Positions 36,818 through 49,216 of a DNA stretch of 64,000 nucleotides are shown in pieces (positions within the stretch are counted from its first letter, which is position 1; the number at the start of each line of letters is the position of its first letter). Origin of the DNA: Planctopirus ephydatiae (lineage in GTDB: Bacteria; Planctomycetota; Planctomycetia; Planctomycetales; Planctomycetaceae); the NCBI RefSeq assembly GCF_007752345.1, contig NZ_CP036299.1:3249501-3313500 (forward strand), written 5' to 3'. The notes beneath the pieces were generated by a model. The model was not told the DNA's origin and made no database searches. It saw only the letters and a list, made by a program, of their open reading frames with translations. The position numbers were made by a program, and so were the translations under genes.

Positions 36818-38761
36818 ATGGCCCGAGAAACCAAAGTCGGACTGGTGCTGGTGGTTGTGCTGGCCTGCGGCTTTGGCTTGCTGCTCTACAAACGGCTGCA
36901 ACACCCACAAATTACTGTCGCGCAAGCCACAGAAGGTGCCTCAACAGAAATCAGTGCTGACGATATCAAGGCTGAGATTCAGCTCGCTTCCGGCAACGCA
37001 GTACCTTCGTCATCCAGTCCTGAGAGCAAGCCAGCCACGACGCTTCCATCGAGCCTGGAGAACGAACTGCTCGATCTCAAAAACGATCCTGTCGCATCTC
37101 CTGAGGCTAACTCGAAGTCGTCTGCAAGAAGTCTCCCGAGCTTGCCGACAGACCTCGATGATATGGCGTTTCCAGCGGAAACACCTCCCGCTGCAGTGGC
37201 GGCTTCCACGCCAAAATCGACGGCTGTCGATGCTGATCCTTTCGCAGACCTGGACTTGCCTGCCAATCAGGCTGCGGGATCAAAGCTACTGGATAACGCG
37301 ACAACATCTCCCGCGACCACAGCAAGTGGAAATACCTCGAAGGCCGTGGAGACCGACCCCTTCGCCTTGGATCTTCCAGATTTAACACCCAGAAAGCCAT
37401 CACCTGCAGCAATCACTTCCTCTGATAATGCAGAATTGACTTTACCTGCTGGCAATCTTGAGCCCCTCCAGAACAAACCAATTTCTTCTGAAAAGATGAC
37501 CACAAGTTCGCCTGCAAATGAAGATCCATTTGCCCTCAAATCTCCTGCTGGTGACATGGAGAAGGCCGCTGCAAAGACCACTTCTCTTGGTAACGAACTG
37601 TCTTTACCTCCCGCAAAAAATCAGCCATCGGTGCCTCAGGATGATCCGTTTTCCATGCCCGTCGAGATCCCTGCGAACGATGCAAGTCTCCAGACAGACA
37701 GCCAGGCGAAAGTGGTCGAATCCTTTGAGCTGCCTGTCCAGGTGGAACCCAAGCGATCTGCCACCAGCTTTCCTGTGAATGAGCCTGCACAGCCAACAAC
37801 TCAAGAGACATCCCGGGCTGTACCAGAACTTGGATTTGCAGAACTCGAGCAACCTTCCGCTAAAGCGAAAACTCCATCTCCGGCAGTCATCGACGAATTT
37901 GGGTTCGATAATCCTACTTCTCAGAAGGAGCCAGCCAAGCCGGCATTGCCACTCGATCTCGATAGCGATCCCTTTGGCGGCAGTACCACAACACCCGGAC
38001 CAAAGCCGGTAGAGAGACCTGCATCAAACATCCCCTCACAGCCAGTGAACAATTCTCCTGCGAATGATCTCGATGCTTTCAGTTTTGAAACGCCGGCCGC
38101 TTCGACCGGTGGTCTGAAACAACCTGCCCCTGCTGGATTGCCGATGGCGGACAACAAACCCGCTCCACAGGAGTCACCGTTTCCAGATCAGCTTTCGATA
38201 CCCGCACCCAATACTCAAAACTCAGTGAATTTGAGCCTTGATCCAGGTTCTACAACCCCTCCCAGCCAACGCTACACCGTCGAACCCAGTGATAACTTCT
38301 GGAGTATTTCGCGAAAGGTCTATGGCAGCGGACGCTACTTCAATGCTCTTGCCTCTCATAATGCCAAGGCGGTTCCTCGTCCCGAAGCTATGAAACCCGG
38401 AACGACTATCGAGATTCCTCCAGTTGAATTTCTTGAGCAGAAATATGGATTCTCGACCTCTCGCGAAGTCAGTGAAGCCGCACGTAACAGTGCTCCATCA
38501 GAAGGAACGAATGAAGCACCTGCCAGTGGTTTCTTCATCGACCCGGCAGGTGTTCCTATGTACAAAGTCAGCGATCAGGACACGATGAGCGGCATTGCCA
38601 GAGCACATCTGGGCCGCTCTTCTCGCTGGATCCAGATTCTCGAACTCAACCGGGATAAGCTTCAAGACGGAAATACCATTGCCGTCGGCACAATTTTGCG
38701 ACTTCCACCCGATGCCAGCCAGGTTCAAGTGATGAACACGTCGCCGGGCACCCGAAACTAA
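36818..38761 (+). CDS. Membrane-anchored protein with DPF-rich low-complexity region and two C-terminal LysM domains
   Basis: The 647-residue protein has one N-terminal membrane helix (VGLVLVVVLACGFGLLLY), a ~450-residue Ser/Pro/Ala/Asp-rich linker with five DPF tripeptides (e.g. DADPFADLDLP, ETDPFALDLP), then two LysM domains near residues 485-535 (YTVEPSDNFWSISRKVYG) and 580-630 (YKVSDQDTMSGIARAHLG). LysM binds N-acetylglucosamine polymers, so it likely contacts peptidoglycan or other glycan in the periplasm. AGGGATGATGAC precedes the start. It is first of a three-gene plus-strand cluster with FtsL-like and FtsI-type proteins. Confidence 0.85.
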   Translation: MARETKVGLVLVVVLACGFGLLLYKRLQHPQITVAQATEGASTEISADDIKAEIQLASGNAVPSSSSPESKPATTLPSSLENELLDLKNDPVASPEANSKSSARSLPSLPTDLDDMAFPAETPPAAVAASTPKSTAVDADPFADLDLPANQAAGSKLLDNATTSPATTASGNTSKAVETDPFALDLPDLTPRKPSPAAITSSDNAELTLPAGNLEPLQNKPISSEKMTTSSPANEDPFALKSPAGDMEKAAAKTTSLGNELSLPPAKNQPSVPQDDPFSMPVEIPANDASLQTDSQAKVVESFELPVQVEPKRSATSFPVNEPAQPTTQETSRAVPELGFAELEQPSAKAKTPSPAVIDEFGFDNPTSQKEPAKPALPLDLDSDPFGGSTTTPGPKPVERPASNIPSQPVNNSPANDLDAFSFETPAASTGGLKQPAPAGLPMADNKPAPQESPFPDQLSIPAPNTQNSVNLSLDPGSTTPPSQRYTVEPSDNFWSISRKVYGSGRYFNALASHNAKAVPRPEAMKPGTTIEIPPVEFLEQKYGFSTSREVSEAARNSAPSEGTNEAPASGFFIDPAGVPMYKVSDQDTMSGIARAHLGRSSRWIQILELNRDKLQDGNTIAVGTILRLPPDASQVQVMNTSPGTRN

Positions 38762-38852
38762 GCGATGCGGGTTGCTCGTAAGTCGATCGACTGCCAGCAA
38801 TTGATACCGCGAAGTTCGCAGGCACACCAAAGCTGTACGGGATCAGGTGGCC

Positions 38853-39176
38853 ATGTTTTTTCGATTTGGGGTCGCAGTACTGATTGTCGTGGCGATTTCG
38901 CTTTATGGAACCTCGCTGGAATCAGAAATACTGTCTCTCAAGAGGCAGATCATTCGCCAAAGCTACCGGATTGACGTCGCTCAGGAGCAACTGGTTCAGC
39001 TACGTCTGGAAGTGCATGCCGCGAGCTCTCCAGTCCATCTGCTACCAAAACTCGAACGTGGCGAGCTGATGGCTATCCGGCCCAGCTATGACGACGATTC
39101 GCGAAAAAAAGATGAAAGACCAAAACGTACTGTGGCGGATCTTTCCCGTCAGGAGAAAACGCCGATCAGGCGATAG
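38853..39176 (+). CDS. ftsL: Probable FtsL-like cell-division protein
   Basis: The 107-residue protein has a very short cytoplasmic start, one membrane helix (RFGVAVLIVVAISLYG), a heptad-rich segment (ESEILSLKRQIIRQSYRIDVAQEQL) likely to form a coiled coil, then SSPVHLLPKLERGELMAIRP, comparable in position to the conserved L-G-M-x-x-P end of FtsL. A Lys/Arg/Asp-rich tail closes it. Position directly before an FtsI-type gene supports FtsL, which bridges the divisome. Sequence identity to known FtsL is low, so the call is partly contextual. ATG 38853 was preferred over GTG 38847. Confidence 0.65.
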   Translation: MFFRFGVAVLIVVAISLYGTSLESEILSLKRQIIRQSYRIDVAQEQLVQLRLEVHAASSPVHLLPKLERGELMAIRPSYDDDSRKKDERPKRTVADLSRQEKTPIRR

Positions 39177-39244
39177 GAACGCCGGGTTTCACTCCACCTC
39201 TCCAGTAATGATCGGAAGAGTGGTCTCTCGAAAGCAATCGTCTC

Positions 39245-41422
39245 ATGAGCTTCTCCTCGTTGATCGCTCGCGTCAGGAACACCTGCCAGAATTGGCTGTT
39301 CCACGCGACCCATCGATGCAGCGAACTCTGGCCTTTCATTCACCAGTTATCTGACCGCTGGTCACAATTACCACTCGTTCAATCCCTGCGCAGGGCAATC
39401 ATTCAGCGCTGGTTTCCCAAGTACGAAATCAGCAACTCGAAACCATCCTCTCAAACCCTCAGTTCGACAGGAACTCTTCAATCTCAACCAACTCCCGAAC
39501 ACTGGGAATGGTTCACTTTTCCCGGGAGATTCTGGAAGGAAAACGTTCCAAAACTTGCGGGAGCCCGATTGATTCTCGCCGCTGGCTCCATTGCGAGATG
39601 GATCTGGAAAGGCTGCACATCGAGCCGTATGCGGCAAGCGATGGAGCTCTCAACGGAGCCGCTGACTTCCCCCAGGGATTCAGTCAACCCAGCAGCATCC
39701 TATCCGTGGCTCACATCTCGTTCGATGGAGCAGCGGATGTTGATTGCCAGCCTGGGTGCTCTGGTCGTGAGTGTGGTTTTGGCCGGGCGGTTGATCCAGC
39801 TCCAGGTTCTTGAGCAGGATGATTTTTCACGAACAGCCTCGGGACAGCGAATCTTTCGACAGACAGTCCCAGCCAGACCAGGGGATATTTTTGATTCTTC
39901 GGGGCGGATTCTTGCAACAACTGTCACCACACAAAGTTTTTATCTGGTTCCCAGCCTGATTGATGAACCAGATTCGTTCGCATCAAAAGTCGCGAGTGTT
40001 CTCCAGCTCGATCCACAAAAGCTCTCTCAAAAAATCAGGAACTCGTCGAAGTCTCAGTTTCTCTGGATTAAACGACGGCTGGACCCCAGCGAAGTCATAT
40101 CGATCCGCGAATTAAAATTACCGCGCGATCAATGGGGATTCCGCGAAGAATATCGCCGGGTCTATCCACAAGGACTAATTGCAGCCCATGTGCTGGGCTT
40201 ACGGAACATCGACGGGATCGGGCAGGGCGGCATCGAAGAATCTCAGGAATCGATTCTGGCTGGTCAACCTGGTTACGAGACCTTACTGAGAGATGCCCGG
40301 GGAAGAGTGCTTGAAATCGAGCCGACCTCGACCTTGCCGATGAGCCCGGGCGAATCTGTCACCCTCACGATTGATACTGTCATCCAGCTCCAGACCGAAC
40401 GTGTTCTGGATGAGGTCATGACTCAGTGGCAACCCAGCAGTGTCTGCGCTATTGCGATGGATCCCCACACAGGCGAAATCCTATCGATGGCTTCTAGACC
40501 CACTTTTGACCCCAATGAACCGGAGCTGGCCGGCAGTGATTCGTGGAAGAACCGGGCTATTGCCGATATCTACGAACCTGGATCGACGTTCAAACCTCTC
40601 ATTGTGGCTTATGGCCTCGAAGCGGGTCTGATTCAAAAAGACCAGGTCTTCGATTGCGAGCGTGGTCAGTATCGGATGGGACGACGAGTCTTGCATGATA
40701 CCCATGCCTATGGCTCATTGAGCCTGACAGATGTGCTCGTGAAATCCAGTAATATCGGCATGGCCAAAGTTGGTGAACTGCTGGGAAATGCAGAGCTTTT
40801 TGAGTCTGCACAACGTTTTGGAATTGGCCGCCGCACAGGCATTGAGTTAACCGGCGAATTACCAGGGCTGTTGCGACCGCTGTCTCTGTGGAACAGTTAC
40901 TCGACAGGCTCCATTCCTATGGGTCATGAACTGGCAGCGACTCCATTGCAGATGATCGCAGCCCACGCTGCGATCGCGAATGGTGGTGTCTGGCGCAGCC
41001 CGACAATCATCAAGGCCCCTCGCGAGAGCCGGACTCAAGTTTCCCAGCAGGTGATTTCCAGCGATGTCTCTCGATGGATGGTCAGTGAACCGCTGCGCGA
41101 AGTGGTTACTCGTGGAACTGGCAAAAAAGCTCAACTGGCAGATTACGAAGTGTTCGGCAAAACCGGTACAGCCCAGGTCTTATTGGCCTCTGGTGGCTAT
41201 TCTCACGGCAAGTATGTGAGTTCCTTCATTTGTGGTGCACCCATCGACAAGCCTCGGGCCATTGTCCTCGTGGTCGTCAACGAAGCCAGTGTGGGTGGTG
41301 AAGCCTTTGGTGGCAAAGTGGCTGCTCCTGCGGCTGCAGAAATTCTGAAACATACTTTAAGGCATCTTTCGAAAGATCTTCGCTGGGCAGCATCACCAGT
41401 AAAGAACCATCCCACCAGATAA
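39245..41422 (+). CDS. ftsI: FtsI/PBP2-type transpeptidase (class B penicillin-binding protein)
   Basis: The 725-residue class B PBP crosslinks peptidoglycan, most likely at the septum. It has an N-terminal membrane helix (MLIASLGALVVSVVLAGRLI near residues 165-184), a dimerisation domain with RPGDIFDSSGRILA, and the transpeptidase motifs SxxK (Ser447-Lys450 in GSTFKP), SxN (Ser501-Asn503) and KTG (Lys639-Gly641). No PASTA domain follows. The ~160 residues before the helix are unusually Trp- and Arg-rich and may be a long cytoplasmic tail or wrong start: ATG 39629, 39641 and 39725 are alternatives. It follows the FtsL-like gene by 68 bp. Confidence 0.9.
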   Translation: MSFSSLIARVRNTCQNWLFHATHRCSELWPFIHQLSDRWSQLPLVQSLRRAIIQRWFPKYEISNSKPSSQTLSSTGTLQSQPTPEHWEWFTFPGRFWKENVPKLAGARLILAAGSIARWIWKGCTSSRMRQAMELSTEPLTSPRDSVNPAASYPWLTSRSMEQRMLIASLGALVVSVVLAGRLIQLQVLEQDDFSRTASGQRIFRQTVPARPGDIFDSSGRILATTVTTQSFYLVPSLIDEPDSFASKVASVLQLDPQKLSQKIRNSSKSQFLWIKRRLDPSEVISIRELKLPRDQWGFREEYRRVYPQGLIAAHVLGLRNIDGIGQGGIEESQESILAGQPGYETLLRDARGRVLEIEPTSTLPMSPGESVTLTIDTVIQLQTERVLDEVMTQWQPSSVCAIAMDPHTGEILSMASRPTFDPNEPELAGSDSWKNRAIADIYEPGSTFKPLIVAYGLEAGLIQKDQVFDCERGQYRMGRRVLHDTHAYGSLSLTDVLVKSSNIGMAKVGELLGNAELFESAQRFGIGRRTGIELTGELPGLLRPLSLWNSYSTGSIPMGHELAATPLQMIAAHAAIANGGVWRSPTIIKAPRESRTQVSQQVISSDVSRWMVSEPLREVVTRGTGKKAQLADYEVFGKTGTAQVLLASGGYSHGKYVSSFICGAPIDKPRAIVLVVVNEASVGGEAFGGKVAAPAAAEILKHTLRHLSKDLRWAASPVKNHPTR

Positions 41423-44267: not shown

Positions 44268-45362
44268 TTACAGAATGAGCATGCAGTCGCCGTAACTGAG
44301 GAAGCGATATCGCTGTTCGACGGCCTCTTGGTAGGCCTGCATCGTCAGGTCATAGCCTGCCATGGCGCAGACCAGCATTAACAGCGTCGATTTGGGAACA
44401 TGAAAGTTCGTCAGTAGAGCCTCCACCTGCAGAAACTCACAAGGTGGCCTGAGGAAGAGATTCGTTTCGCCCTGCCAAGGTAAACCCACACCCACTTTTC
44501 TCGCAGCCGATTCCAAGGTTCGCGCGGAGGTTGTCCCAATTGCCAGGACCTTCCCTCCCTGAGATCTTGTGGATTGGATTTTTCGTGCCACGTCTTCAGA
44601 CAGCTCGCAGGTTTCTGTATGCATCTTATGCTCGGCGATCCGCTCACTGCTGACGGGGCGGAATGTCCCCATGCCGACATGCAGCGTGACTTCCGCAAAT
44701 TTCGCTCCGGAAGCAGCACATCGATCTCTCAGTGCAGGAGTAAAATGCAGTCCAGCGGTAGGTGCTGCGACCGAGCCTTGAGGCCCGGAAAAAATCGTCT
44801 GATAGCGGACCCGATCTTCCACCTCTTCGTCATCTCTATGAATGTAGGGTGGCAGAGGCATGCTTCCATATTGCTCAAGCAGATCCCAGGTAGAAACTTG
44901 ACTCTGAGGACATGCTTTCCAGATGCCACCCTCTCCACGTTCGATCAACTGCAATTGAAGGTCGGGGTGCTGACGACTTTCTGTACTTTCGACATGAGTG
45001 GCTGGAACAGGAATCGTGATCCACTCCCCAGATTGAAGTCGTCCGCGAGTCTGCCCGATGATCTGCCACTCTCCGGAGGTTGTTACTCCCAGAAAAAGTC
45101 CTTCCCATTTGCCGCTAGTGGAAGCTCTCACACCCTGTAATCGGGCAGGTACGACTTTGCTGTTGTTGACCACAATCAGATCGTGGGGTTTAAGGAACAG
45201 CGGCAGCTCTTTAATGAACCGATGCTCGATCATGCCTTTCGAACGATGTATGACCAGCATGCGAGAGGCGTCTCGCTCGGGCAAAGGATGCTGTGCAATC
45301 AGTTCCGGAGGAAGTTCATAATCGTAAGTCGAAAGTGACTCAAAATCTGGGGAGGACGACAT
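44268..45362 (-). CDS. queA: tRNA preQ1(34) S-adenosylmethionine ribosyltransferase-isomerase
   Basis: The 364-residue enzyme transfers the ribose of SAM to preQ1 at tRNA position 34 to give epoxyqueuosine. It shows the QueA features LSTYDYELPPELIAQHPLP near the start, DLIVVNNSKVVPARLQG, TAGLHFTPALRDR, HVGMGTFRPV and the closing HVPKSTLLMLVCAMAGYD. ATG 45362 was chosen since GGAGAAAGC lies directly upstream and a further 18 codons of frame have no family match. No other queuosine gene is visible nearby. Confidence 0.95.
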   Translation of the reverse strand: MSSSPDFESLSTYDYELPPELIAQHPLPERDASRMLVIHRSKGMIEHRFIKELPLFLKPHDLIVVNNSKVVPARLQGVRASTSGKWEGLFLGVTTSGEWQIIGQTRGRLQSGEWITIPVPATHVESTESRQHPDLQLQLIERGEGGIWKACPQSQVSTWDLLEQYGSMPLPPYIHRDDEEVEDRVRYQTIFSGPQGSVAAPTAGLHFTPALRDRCAASGAKFAEVTLHVGMGTFRPVSSERIAEHKMHTETCELSEDVARKIQSTRSQGGKVLAIGTTSARTLESAARKVGVGLPWQGETNLFLRPPCEFLQVEALLTNFHVPKSTLLMLVCAMAGYDLTMQAYQEAVEQRYRFLSYGDCMLIL

Positions 45363-45544
45363 GCTTTCTCCGATAGACTGCGAGTGCCAGGCCTTGATTC
45401 GCACTCCTTGAATCATTGATGCTACATTGAAGTTCTCGATATGTCTGGCGAACAGAGCCCAGAGTTGCTTTGGCAGGAACAGAAATTCCTGAAAACGGCT
45501 AGTATCGACAGAAATCGAAAGACGTTTTGACGAATGCGAACTGC

Positions 45545-46711
45545 ATGACCCACAGCCCTCGCCCTCGAATTCTGATGATCATCACGGAACTTGACCGGGG
45601 TGGTGCCGAGCAACAGTTCGTGCAACTGGCCATCGGCTTACTGCACAAAGGCTGGGAGGTGCGGGTAGTTTGCCTAGGGCCACGGGCCGAGCTTTGCGAT
45701 CAACTCGAAGAGCAGGGGATTGTTCCTCGCTGTCTGGGTGCCAGGAGCGTCTGGTCAACGCTGTCCGTTCTCAAGCAGTTGGTTGAGAATATCCGCAGCT
45801 TTCAGCCAGAAATTATTCAGACATATCTGTTCCATGCCAATATTCTGGGGCGTCTGGCGGCTTTCAGAGCAGGGCGATCAATTGTCGTTTGCGGTCTACG
45901 AGTCGCAGAGCGGCAAGCCCATTGGCATGGCTGGGTCGAATGGCTCACAGCTTCGCTGGTGACTCGATGGGTTTGTGTCAGTGAGGGCGTCCGTCAACAC
46001 GCTGCGAAAAACTGGAAGCTCGACCAGACAAGGCTCGTTGTCATTCCCAATGGAATTGACATCGACCGCTGGAAAAACGCCATCCCATTCACCAGAGCAG
46101 ATCTCGACCTCCCCGCCGATGCTATCATGCTCTTTTCTGCTGGGAGGCTGGATGTGCAGAAGGGGATGGACACATTGCTCAAGGCGTTTGGAAAAGTGGC
46201 CCCTGAATGGCCCAGTCTTCATCTGGTGATTGCTGGTGAAGGACCGCTAAGAAGAGAGCTCGAACTTCACAAAGGTACTCAAGGTCCAGCCAGTGGTCGG
46301 GTCCATTTTCTTGGCCAGAGAAATGACATTCCTCGCCTGATGGCCACTTGCGATCTTTTCGTGCTGGCATCGCGCTGGGAGGGAATGCCCAATGCACTGC
46401 TCGAAGCAATGGCCACCGGCAAGCCCTGTGTGGCCACCAACGCCGAAGGGAGTTCAGAACTCCTCGGGTATGGCCAGCGGGGCGAACATAGCCAGCGGGG
46501 CTGGCTGGTCCCCGTCGATGATTCACTGGCTCTGGCGGCCGCCATTGATGAGGCGCTCAGCAGCGAGTCTCGATGCACCGACCTCGCAAACTCGGCGCAA
46601 GCATATATTGAAAAACAGCTTACAACACAGGCGATGATTTCTGCCTACAATTTTTTGTACGGGCAATTGCTGGAAGTGAGCCCACCAGCACTCTCAACGT
46701 CGATCAACTGA
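45545..46711 (+). CDS. GT4-family glycosyltransferase
   Basis: The 388-residue product has a Rossmann-type N-terminal half (RILMIITELDRGGAEQQFVQ) and the GT4 C-terminal signature with the E-x7-E site: LFVLASRWEGMPNALLEAMATGKPCVAT. It transfers a sugar from an NDP-sugar to a lipid or polysaccharide acceptor, probably in the envelope. The gene may start at ATG 45545 or at an upstream TTG (45527). It lies between the divergent queA and the mraZ gene and has no polysaccharide cluster partners. Confidence 0.88.
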   Translation: MTHSPRPRILMIITELDRGGAEQQFVQLAIGLLHKGWEVRVVCLGPRAELCDQLEEQGIVPRCLGARSVWSTLSVLKQLVENIRSFQPEIIQTYLFHANILGRLAAFRAGRSIVVCGLRVAERQAHWHGWVEWLTASLVTRWVCVSEGVRQHAAKNWKLDQTRLVVIPNGIDIDRWKNAIPFTRADLDLPADAIMLFSAGRLDVQKGMDTLLKAFGKVAPEWPSLHLVIAGEGPLRRELELHKGTQGPASGRVHFLGQRNDIPRLMATCDLFVLASRWEGMPNALLEAMATGKPCVATNAEGSSELLGYGQRGEHSQRGWLVPVDDSLALAAAIDEALSSESRCTDLANSAQAYIEKQLTTQAMISAYNFLYGQLLEVSPPALSTSIN

Positions 46712-46838
46712 AAATTTTTTCCACGACCGAATCGCTTTGTGCATAACGAGCTACGGCGACAGAGAACATCATCAGGCCCTTCCGGCCTCGAGCTGAACTT
46801 GCACGATGGTGACGGATTGATATTCTGCGGGGACTTTG

Positions 46839-46862
46839 TGGGAGATTGTGGGAAGGAATGGG
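46839..46862 (+). promoter_or_regulatory. Three TGGG repeats at 10-bp spacing upstream of mraZ (MraZ operator)
   Basis: TGGG begins at exactly 46839, 46849 and 46859, about 60-80 bp before the mraZ start. In other bacteria MraZ binds direct TGGGN repeats separated by five bases, the same spacing, and represses or tunes its own promoter. A fourth TGGG lies at 46913, close to the start codon, at a different spacing. A TTGACG hexamer at 46888 may be the -35 element, but no clear -10 was seen. Confidence 0.8.
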
Positions 46863-46921
46863 GAAACATATCCCTTCTTGAAATCTCTTGACGTTGCCTT
46901 GTAACTAGCGACTGGGTCAAG

Positions 46922-47371
46922 ATGCCGCTGACGGGTACCTACCTGCGAATTCTCGACGAGAAGCAGCGTGTGGGCCTCCCCAAGCGACTACGCGAAGACT
47001 TGGGTTGCCTCGAGTGTAATCATCTGTACATCGCACCCGGGACTCAAAAATCACTGGTACTCTACTCTCCGGAAGGTTTCAATTGCCTGTCGGAAACATT
47101 AAGTTCCAGAGGTTTTCCTGGGGGTGACCAAACGTATTTGCGGTTGTTTTACTCTTCTGCGGAGAGGGTCGATTTAGATAATCAAGGACGATTCCGAATA
47201 CCGGATCGGCTGTCCACCCACGCTTTGCTCGATAAAGAAATCTATCTGCTGGGCGTGAATGACCATGTCGAAATCTGGGATCGGGAGCATTGGGATCGGT
47301 ATACGAGAACGTTTTCCCCACAGTTTGATCAGCTCTCCTCTCCGGGGAACTCCTGGCAGATTGCGGGCTGA
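46922..47371 (+). CDS. mraZ: MraZ transcriptional regulator of division and cell wall genes
   Basis: The 149-residue protein has two SpoVT/AbrB-like MraZ domains: LRILDEKQRVGLPKRLRED in the first half and VDLDNQGRFRIPDRLSTH in the second, followed by VNDHVEIWDREHWDRY near the end. The D-x-K/N-x-R-x-x-x-P cores are intact. In most bacteria mraZ heads the dcw cluster before mraW; here the next gene is far away and on the other strand, so mraZ stands alone. Three TGGG repeats upstream look like its binding site. Its likely targets, ftsL/ftsI-type genes, lie about 6-8 kb upstream in this window. Confidence 0.92.
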   Translation: MPLTGTYLRILDEKQRVGLPKRLREDLGCLECNHLYIAPGTQKSLVLYSPEGFNCLSETLSSRGFPGGDQTYLRLFYSSAERVDLDNQGRFRIPDRLSTHALLDKEIYLLGVNDHVEIWDREHWDRYTRTFSPQFDQLSSPGNSWQIAG

Positions 47372-47713
47372 GCGGTGTGAATTCTTTGTTCAACAAGTCT
47401 GCTGGTTTGGAGAACAGGGGAGCTTTGAGTAGATTTGACTGAGTTCTTCCCGCTGGCTTACCGGGCTTCGCGGAAATGCCTGACTGAGAACGGAATCTCA
47501 GCAGGGGCGTTCGCTGCAGAGGAGTTGAGTGATCGACTCTGACATGAAGTGAAAAGCTGCTCGCTGCAGAATGTGGCAAGATGTCACAGGCAGCTGGCAG
47601 ACGCCAATAGAACAGATTGCCGGTCGCAGGTGGCAGCCCGCGACCGGCAGTTTTTTTGATTGTACCCTGATGTTTGCCTGTAGAAATTCCTCACAAGGAA
47701 AATCTCAGAAGCG
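47372..47713. other. Intergenic region after mraZ ending in a terminator
   Basis: About 340 bp. The only clear structure is the terminator at 47618-47657; 247 bp separate it from mraZ, which is long for a 3' end, so an untranslated RNA is possible. No coding frame with family character was seen. Confidence 0.45.
47618..47657 (+). terminator. Rho-independent terminator downstream of mraZ
   Basis: A 10-bp stem TGCCGGTCGC / GCGACCGGCA with a 12-base loop, followed by seven T. It ends transcription from mraZ or from an unidentified small RNA in the gap. Confidence 0.85.
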
Positions 47714-49150
47714 TCAGATGAGCACCTCTTGAACCACGTGGCCGTGCACATCGGTCAGTCGGAAATCCCGCCCCTGAAAGCGGTAAGTTAACCGCTCATG
47801 ATCAATCCCCAGTTGATGCAGCAGTGTGGCATGCAGGTCATGAACGTGAACTCGTCCACTCGTCGCTGCAAATCCCAATTCATCGGTCGAGCCATGAATG
47901 TATCCAGGCCGAAACCCTCCACCTGCCACCCACATGGTAAAGGCATCAATGTGGTGATCGCGACCAATTGTCCCTCGCACTTCACCCAGTGGAGTTCGAC
48001 CAAATTCCCCACCCCAGATGACCAGTGTATCGTCCAGCAAACCGCGTTGTTTCAGATCGAGAATCAGTGCCGCCGACGCCTGATCAACCGCCCGACATTC
48101 CTTCTCCAGAGCGTCTGTCAGATCGGCCCCTTTCCCGCCATGATGATCCCAGTCGGTATGATAAAGCTGAATGAATCGCACACCGCGCTCGACCAGCCGA
48201 CGAGCCAGAAGACAATTATTCGCAAACGAAGCCTTACCAGGCTCAGCTCCATAAAGATTGAGCGTCGCTTCGGTCTCCTGCGAGAGTTCCACTAACTCTG
48301 GAGCACTCGTCTGCATCCGATAGGCGGTTTCGTAAGCGGCAATTCGAGTGGCTATCTCGGGATCTCCCGACTGCTGCAACTGCACGTCGTTCAATTGCCG
48401 CAACGTCGAGATCAGTCGGCTCTGCCCTTCATCATCGAATCCCGAAGGAGTTTGTAGATGAAGAATTGGCGGCCCCTGGCCTCGCAGCGGGACACCCTGA
48501 TACTGTGAAGGCAGAAAACCACTCGACCACAGTGCATTCCCAGCCCGAGGGCCACGCGGGCCGCTCTGAAGCACCACAAAAGCCGGCAGATTCTGTGATT
48601 CACTCCCCAATCCATATGTCAGCCAGGAACCAAAACTTGGCCGCCCAGGTGCCTGAAAGCCTGTATTCATAAACAGTTTGGCAGGACCGTGGTTAAAGAC
48701 ATCCGTCGACACAGCCTTCAACCAGCAGACATCATCGACAATTGAGCGGTGGTACGGGAGGAGCTCACTCAGTTCCATCCCACATTCGCCGTAGCGACTA
48801 AATTGTCGAGTGCTGCCCAGCAGCTTGGCATCCGGCTTCAAAAATGCAAAGCGACGACCCTCAGTAAAACTGGTCGGTGGTGCCTCGCCATGAAACCGCT
48901 TCAGCTCGGGTTTATCCTCAAACAGTTCGAGCTGACTCGGGCCGCCGGCCATAAACAAAAAGATGACACTTTTCGCTTTCGCCAACCTGGGTGCCGGTGC
49001 CGGTTCCGCTGTGAAGCCATCCTGAGCCAACAAAGCTCCCAGTGCCGTCCCTCCCAATGCCAGTGGAGCCTGCTGGAGAAAATAGCGGCGATTCAAAACA
49101 TCAGCGGCCTGTTTCGAAATCTTCGAATTGTCTTGTGATAAATCTGACAT
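47714..49150 (-). CDS. DUF1501 Tat-exported protein (sulfatase-like fold)
   Basis: The 478-residue protein has a twin-arginine signal (NRRYFLQQAPLALGG) and the DUF1501 body: KSVIFLFMAGGPSQLELFEDKP at the start, LFMNTGFQAPGRPSFGSWLTYGLGSES in the middle, and VIWGGEFGRTP plus DHHIDAFTMWVAGGGFRPGY near the end. DUF1501 proteins have an alkaline phosphatase-like fold and always occur next to DUF1553/DUF1549 proteins in planctomycetes. Start ATG 49150 (M5) was preferred. It lies about 70 bp downstream of the partner gene, probably one operon. Confidence 0.92.
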   Translation of the reverse strand: MSDLSQDNSKISKQAADVLNRRYFLQQAPLALGGTALGALLAQDGFTAEPAPAPRLAKAKSVIFLFMAGGPSQLELFEDKPELKRFHGEAPPTSFTEGRRFAFLKPDAKLLGSTRQFSRYGECGMELSELLPYHRSIVDDVCWLKAVSTDVFNHGPAKLFMNTGFQAPGRPSFGSWLTYGLGSESQNLPAFVVLQSGPRGPRAGNALWSSGFLPSQYQGVPLRGQGPPILHLQTPSGFDDEGQSRLISTLRQLNDVQLQQSGDPEIATRIAAYETAYRMQTSAPELVELSQETEATLNLYGAEPGKASFANNCLLARRLVERGVRFIQLYHTDWDHHGGKGADLTDALEKECRAVDQASAALILDLKQRGLLDDTLVIWGGEFGRTPLGEVRGTIGRDHHIDAFTMWVAGGGFRPGYIHGSTDELGFAATSGRVHVHDLHATLLHQLGIDHERLTYRFQGRDFRLTDVHGHVVQEVLI

Positions 49151-49216
49151 GCTGACCTGCACTGTTCTGGTTCGGGAAGAAGTCTCAAGGTTCGGAGGAA
49201 ACGACCAGAAAATCGT

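Follow-up and report, generated by a model that had tools for sequence, protein, structure and literature searches.

A solitary mraZ gene with phased upstream boxes and a putative self-repressing role in a planctomycete without detectable FtsZ

The window analyzed here is a 64,000-nucleotide stretch of the genome of Planctopirus ephydatiae, which is assembled as a single contig of 5.21 Mb. An open reading frame (ORF) on the forward strand at positions 46922 to 47371 of the window encodes a 149-amino-acid MraZ protein, hereafter MraZ1. The Pfam MraZ profile (PF02381) matched this ORF at 72.5 bits, against a cut-off of 23, in two stretches that correspond to the two domain copies. The score for the NCBIfam equivalog TIGR00242 was 88.1 bits, below a cut-off of 98.35 that is curated for naming and reflects no structural feature. 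A DxxxR motif in both halves of the protein is a feature of MraZ, and D12/R16 and D86/R90 of MraZ1 were present in 26/26 aligned sequences (26 of the 28 orthologs described below, with near-identical congeners omitted). When the structure model of MraZ1 (mean pLDDT 87.8) was searched with Foldseek, all 16 matches at E ≤ 0.001 were MraZ chains of M. genitalium or M. pneumoniae, and the TM scores, normalized by query, were 0.70 to 0.80 across these chains. The dN/dS values of mraZ within the genus were 0.028, 0.031, and 0.053, and mraZ1 is thus under strong purifying selection.

Immediately 5′ of mraZ lies a glycosyltransferase gene (GT; 45527 to 46711, forward strand), which adjoins mraZ in many relatives, preceded by queA (44268 to 45416, reverse strand), also a neighbor in many relatives. 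Further upstream on the forward strand are a LysM protein gene (36818 to 38761), which is the first gene of a lysM-ftsL-ftsI group and follows mraW in G004, G021, and other relatives; a gene for an ftsL-like small membrane protein (38847 to 39176), named by its position and its similarity to a gene of G021; and an ftsI-type transpeptidase gene (39245 to 41422; Pfam Transpeptidase, 222.9 bits). The next gene after mraZ encodes a DUF1501 protein on the opposite strand (47714 to 49162) and occupies the place of mraW in some relatives. A hairpin followed by seven T, read by eye at 47618 to 47657 on the forward strand, is the probable end of the mraZ transcript; the same stem was found by a computational scan, which reported it for the reverse strand only. 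The hairpin with its T-run and the opposite orientation of the DUF1501 gene indicate that mraZ is probably the last gene of its transcript.

Upstream of mraZ, a promoter-like element on the forward strand (46799 to 46826) consists of a −35 hexamer, TTGCAC (46799 to 46804), a 16-nucleotide spacer, and a −10 hexamer, TATTCT (46821 to 46826). It matches the consensus at 7 of 12 letters, and the same weaker pair is present in congeners; stricter promoter scans reported none at mraZ and none before lysM. The first-pass annotation of this DNA had noted three TGGG sequences spaced exactly 10 bp apart, and these are found on the forward strand at 46839 to 46842, 46849 to 46852, and 46859 to 46862, the last within TGGGGA. 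Its count of three holds for TGGG itself but not for the array as a whole, as a degenerate first box, GGGG (46829 to 46832), stands in the same 10-bp phase two bases after the end of the −10 hexamer at 46826. The 10-bp-phased boxes would lie over the putative transcription start of mraZ, as placed from the promoter-like sequence. The stretch from 46789 to 46852 is unchanged across three genomes of the genus, and the intergenic stretch just before it (46712 to 46788) carries 7 differences between two of them.

By counts alone, the triple is weak evidence and only mildly unusual. The three-box pattern with at most one mismatch occurred three times in the window; 100 shuffles averaged 0.42 occurrences and never exceeded 2. 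The exact TGGG triple occurred once in the 5.21-Mb genome (reversed control, 0) and at 52 places in 37 related genomes (reversed control, 26), with 4 of the 52 located upstream of mraZ. The genome-wide search proposed in the first-pass annotation was thus carried out for three-box patterns, the form in which ftsK and other wall genes were covered. What lifts the boxes above chance is their place and conservation rather than their number.

To follow the boxes across relatives, a protein search of 59 genomes, 37 of them from the family, was performed. MraZ1 was found in 28/37 family genomes and not found in 9/37. Three further genomes of other families gave weak matches to the MraZ1 search, at places assigned to a second copy, MraZ2 (see below); L034, L035, and the G045 match overlap MraZ2-assigned places and were not counted as mraZ1. 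Boxes at a 10-bp pitch were present no more than 200 bases from the start in 28/28 mraZ1 orthologs, so that the conservation among related genomes on which the earlier proposal had been staked is borne out and chance repeats are rejected. The best three boxes matched at 12/12 letters in 9/28 orthologs, and a three-box test with 200 shuffles each gave p ≤ 0.04 in 27/28 orthologs and p = 0.07 in the remaining one. The box consensus derived from 24 sites outside the genus is GTGG[G/T]GA. A matrix was built from these 24 of the 28 sites, without L023 and the three genus loci. It scored the 28 mraZ upstream regions at 14.1 to 34.2 bits, where the scores of the 24 matrix sites lean upwards because the matrix was built from them; the four left-out sites scored 23.8 to 28.0 bits. 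The window site reached 25.6 bits with this matrix, built without its genus, and the next nonoverlapping site in the window reached 9.8 bits. The weak arrays were those of L013 and L033, at 14.1 and 17.6 bits.

A promoter-like pair matching at 8 to 9 of 12 letters, taken as the best of several placements and without a shuffle control, ends 7 to 11 bases before the three-box site in 17/28 orthologs. These putative promoters resemble TTGAC[C/G]-N16-TAAATT and occupy the same place as the window element. A promoter located downstream of the boxes, before the ATG, was considered and rejected because the last box ends 2 to 5 bases from the ATG in many orthologs, leaving no room there. Among 18 MraZ loci of the phylum outside the class, all absent from the matrix, 11 scored at least 19.5 bits (8 of the 11 from one family) and 7 scored below 14, although starts were placed automatically and some misses may reflect misplaced starts.

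The layout of the window site resembles that of characterized MraZ operators, in agreement with the likeness to MraZ repeats elsewhere claimed at first reading. The Pmra promoter of Burkholderia cenocepacia, also controlled by a member of the MraZ family, is reported to carry four 7-nucleotide repeats separated by 3-nucleotide spacers, a 10-bp pitch, after the −10 and overlapping the start site (PMC7761207). The PDB entry 9sz7, titled as MraZ with a four-box promoter, and the entry 9r4j likewise concern M. genitalium MraZ, according to their titles, and share with the window locus the four boxes and the MraZ fold. The box sequence differs, the direct repeats of Mollicutes being given as AAAGTG[T/G] (PMC8475190) and those here being GTGG[G/T]GA. 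The genomic setting also sets the locus apart from B. cenocepacia and from Escherichia coli, where MraZ represses its own gene and the cluster, as told in PMC8475190: the window mraZ is solitary, with no dcw cluster behind it, and no FtsZ was found in the genome.

It is very improbable that the boxes act as a G-quadruplex rather than as protein sites. The window sequence GGGG-N7-GGG-N7-GGG-N7-GGGG at 46829 to 46863 does fit a quadruplex motif with three 7-nucleotide loops, as do the sequences of two congeners. A quadruplex has been reported in the mraZ promoter of Staphylococcus aureus, where the G-tracts also lie just downstream of the promoter, and the authors report conserved motifs across other bacteria as well (PMC11796246). 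Unlike the phased boxes, which are present in 28/28 planctomycete orthologs, the quadruplex motif fits only 4/28, because many of the boxes read TGGTGA, and we rejected the quadruplex as a conserved feature.

The gene order of relatives indicates how the window arrangement arose. The order queA-GT-mraZ-mraW-lysM-ftsL-ftsI is present in G004, G021, and G023, and in G005 without a detectable ftsL. G006 retains queA-GT-mraZ-mraW-lysM, with ftsL and ftsI not found in the stretch examined, and G018 has mraZ-mraW-lysM-ftsL-ftsI, with no GT found. The window instead reads lysM-ftsL-ftsI (36818 to 41422), then queA-GT-mraZ, the order being broken right after mraZ, and the congener G001 shows ftsI-queA-GT-mraZ-DUF1501 in the stretch examined, as in the window. 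The break-up of the cluster proposed in the first-pass annotation is therefore upheld by synteny. No mraW was found in the window; that of this genome lies at 3666479 to 3667360, about 370 kb from mraZ, so that mraZ is indeed followed by neither mraW nor a dcw cluster. The description of mraZ as isolated applies to mraW but not to ftsL-ftsI, which lie 5.5 to 8 kb upstream in the same direction. Across the family, 9/28 orthologs have mraW no more than about 1.5 kb after mraZ; in the other 19/28, it was not found there.

Both of the separated parts lack the boxes. The lysM-ftsL-ftsI group, 5.5 to 10 kb upstream of mraZ, carries no array, and none was detected in the 25 mraW upstream regions examined from the 35 genomes with mraW, where the best score was 9.7 bits and the others were at most 3.5 bits. 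The repeats, which the first-pass annotation had proposed to look for upstream of ftsL and ftsI, were not found there, and boxes upstream of lysM-ftsL-ftsI or mraW were rejected by the matrix scan. A second mraW-type gene (PF01795) is present in the same genome at 702267 to 703154 on the forward strand, in agreement with Planctopirus limnophila, for which two mraW locus tags are given (PMC12283558).

Discussions of MraZ usually place it at the head of an ftsZ-containing cluster. The lack of FtsZ, earlier supposed for several members of the phylum, proved wider than guessed: no tubulin-family gene was matched in 37/37 genomes, with the search control positive in 13/14. A solitary mraZ is itself of a known kind and is found here in an unusual setting.

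Our preferred reading, to which we assign a probability of roughly 85%, is that the window gene encodes an MraZ that represses itself through an operator at 46829 to 46862, and that the cluster has moved off while chiefly self-control was kept. MraZ1 would bind the four 10-bp-phased boxes covering its transcript start, and the bound protein would block initiation and so repress its own gene. The remaining cluster genes would have been relocated in this genus, mraW to a distance of about 370 kb and lysM-ftsL-ftsI to the 5′ side of queA. As the separated genes lack boxes, self-control would be chiefly what was retained. We infer the binding by MraZ1, repression as its sign, and the absence of further targets from the sequence comparisons above. 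The phased boxes kept in 28/28 orthologs support the earlier suggestion of autoregulation retained after the break-up, and it is most likely that self-control outlived control of the cluster. Self-control would then be separable from regulation of both the cluster and FtsZ, with mraZ and its operator kept away from mraW and in genomes with no detectable FtsZ.

That MraZ1 was instead rewired, and still controls other genes such as those of division or the wall through shorter or divergent sites, is possible but somewhat doubtful. The strong purifying selection on the protein would fit such a role, and the genome-wide searches took in three-box patterns only, which two-box or divergent targets would escape. 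A relaxed search of the P. ephydatiae genome with one mismatch found 8 other three-box-like places, compared to 1 in the reversed control, and the best two scored 21.6 and 20.4 bits on a scale on which the window site scored 24.1. However, four of the 8 places fall within ORFs, and none of the four neighboring ORFs scanned is a division gene; one place (13.8 bits) precedes an HD/GGDEF gene by about 110 bp. The absence of arrays at mraW and upstream of lysM-ftsL-ftsI in the window also speaks against rewired control. We consider it improbable that mraZ1 and its boxes are a relic merely not yet lost. The gene was not found in 9/37 family genomes, although in one of these, G003, the contig stops 41 bases past the GT match, at the expected place of mraZ. 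Against decay stand the dN/dS values of 0.028 to 0.053, the promoter-operator block unchanged within the genus, and the boxes kept in the 19/28 orthologs where mraW was not found within about 1.5 kb.

In three genomes that lack mraZ1, the boxes are missing too: G016, G024, and G012 keep queA-GT-mraW but have neither mraZ nor boxes. A search of these three stretches with an MraZ1 profile found no remnant of mraZ, and the gene was found in G021, as expected. G030, also without a detected mraZ1, has an 11.1-bit place at the end of the GT gene (L186); no mraZ remnant was found there by profile search. About 230 bases past the GT end, a TTGACC promoter-like stretch is followed by a single GTGGGGA box (read by eye), and this stretch is possibly a decayed operator at the place where mraZ would have been. 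The G010 genome has queA-GT beside ftsI, lysM, and mraW on the other strand (L176); neither MraZ1 nor MraZ2 was found in it.

MraZ2, a diverged paralog not anticipated in the first-pass annotation, is encoded elsewhere in the P. ephydatiae genome (L049, orthologs L050 to L078; G000:C1:4502153-4502617, reverse strand; Pfam 54.4 bits) and was found in 30/37 genomes. Among 199 genomes of the phylum, matches to MraZ2 above 230 bits occurred in only 12, all of the same class, and the next best match scored 57. In a quick tree, MraZ2 formed one clade (SH-aLRT 100) on a long branch of 2.3. The tree omitted two near-identical congeners per paralog, 2/13 loci of one further search, and 4/18 phylum loci, two whose reading was too short and two that were not entered. 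The MraZ2 model (mean pLDDT 95.9) gave 16 PDB fold matches at E ≤ 0.001, which were MraZ. The first DxxxR motif is kept in 28/28 aligned sequences (of the 30, with near-identical congeners omitted), and the aspartate of the second is replaced by alanine in 25 and by glycine in 3. The surroundings of mraZ2 are hardly conserved: outside the genus, no neighbors formed a cluster of more than two, as judged with crude ORF picking.

The sequence upstream of mraZ2 follows a different design, with two TGGG-N7-CCCA palindromes 41 to 42 bp apart. The pair matched at 12 or more of 16 letters in 37/37 genomes examined and at 15 or 16 letters in 33, and only 9 to 13 of 16 letters were reached in the 28 MraZ1 upstream regions. 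Conversely, no direct-repeat array at a 10-bp pitch was found upstream of mraZ2, where scores were at most 9.5 bits in 37. Searched for the exact pair, the 37 genomes yielded 17 places, spread over 16 genomes; 15 of these places lie upstream of mraZ2, and the control gave 1 place. In many genomes, a palindrome fills the gap between the −35 and −10 hexamers. This embedded form, sought as TTG-N3-GTGGG-N7-CCCA-N-TA-N3-T with one mismatch, occurred at 16 places, 14 of them upstream of mraZ2, and the control pattern occurred at 11. The mraZ2 of P. ephydatiae has a 15/16 pair but lacks both the exact pair and the embedded promoter form.

The palindromes are intact (16/16) in eight genomes lacking a detected MraZ1 (G007, G012, G014, G016, G020, G040, G045, and G049), which argues that MraZ2 itself is likely the reader of its palindromes. 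Cross-regulation between MraZ1 and MraZ2 is rather unlikely. A GTGGG core is common to both operators, and in L077 and L078 the second, downstream mraZ2 site is TGGG-N6-TGGG, a direct repeat of 10 bp; this hints that both designs share TGGG as one half-site. Against it, the palindromes are kept in the eight genomes without detected MraZ1, and direct repeats are found among the MraZ loci outside the class, for which no MraZ2 was detected. With MraZ2 and its palindromic operator in the same genome as MraZ1, this FtsZ-lacking cell probably operates two MraZ loops, each under its own control.

We lean slightly toward a broader reading in which the Planctomycetia possess two self-controlled MraZ switches in the absence of FtsZ, an ancestral MraZ with four boxes and a class-specific MraZ2 that reads a new palindromic operator. 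MraZ2, having lost the aspartate of the second DxxxR motif, would read two palindromes placed four helical turns apart, the downstream one filling, in many genomes, the 17-bp gap between −35 and −10. If so, MraZ would act in a role that does not depend on FtsZ, and altering one half of the protein would have converted a direct-repeat code into a palindromic one. We found no description of a second MraZ or of a palindromic MraZ operator in planctomycetes in the open-licence literature, and to that extent the MraZ2 operator is an undescribed variant. The direct repeats and the palindromes form a natural pair for working out how MraZ reads DNA. This question could be addressed in the related P. 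limnophila, whose division genes have been examined for essentiality and in which all but one of the dcw genes were reported as nonessential (PMC12283558). One palindrome-pair match located away from mraZ2 (G012:C63:582-636) resembles, by eye, the T-arm of a tRNA.
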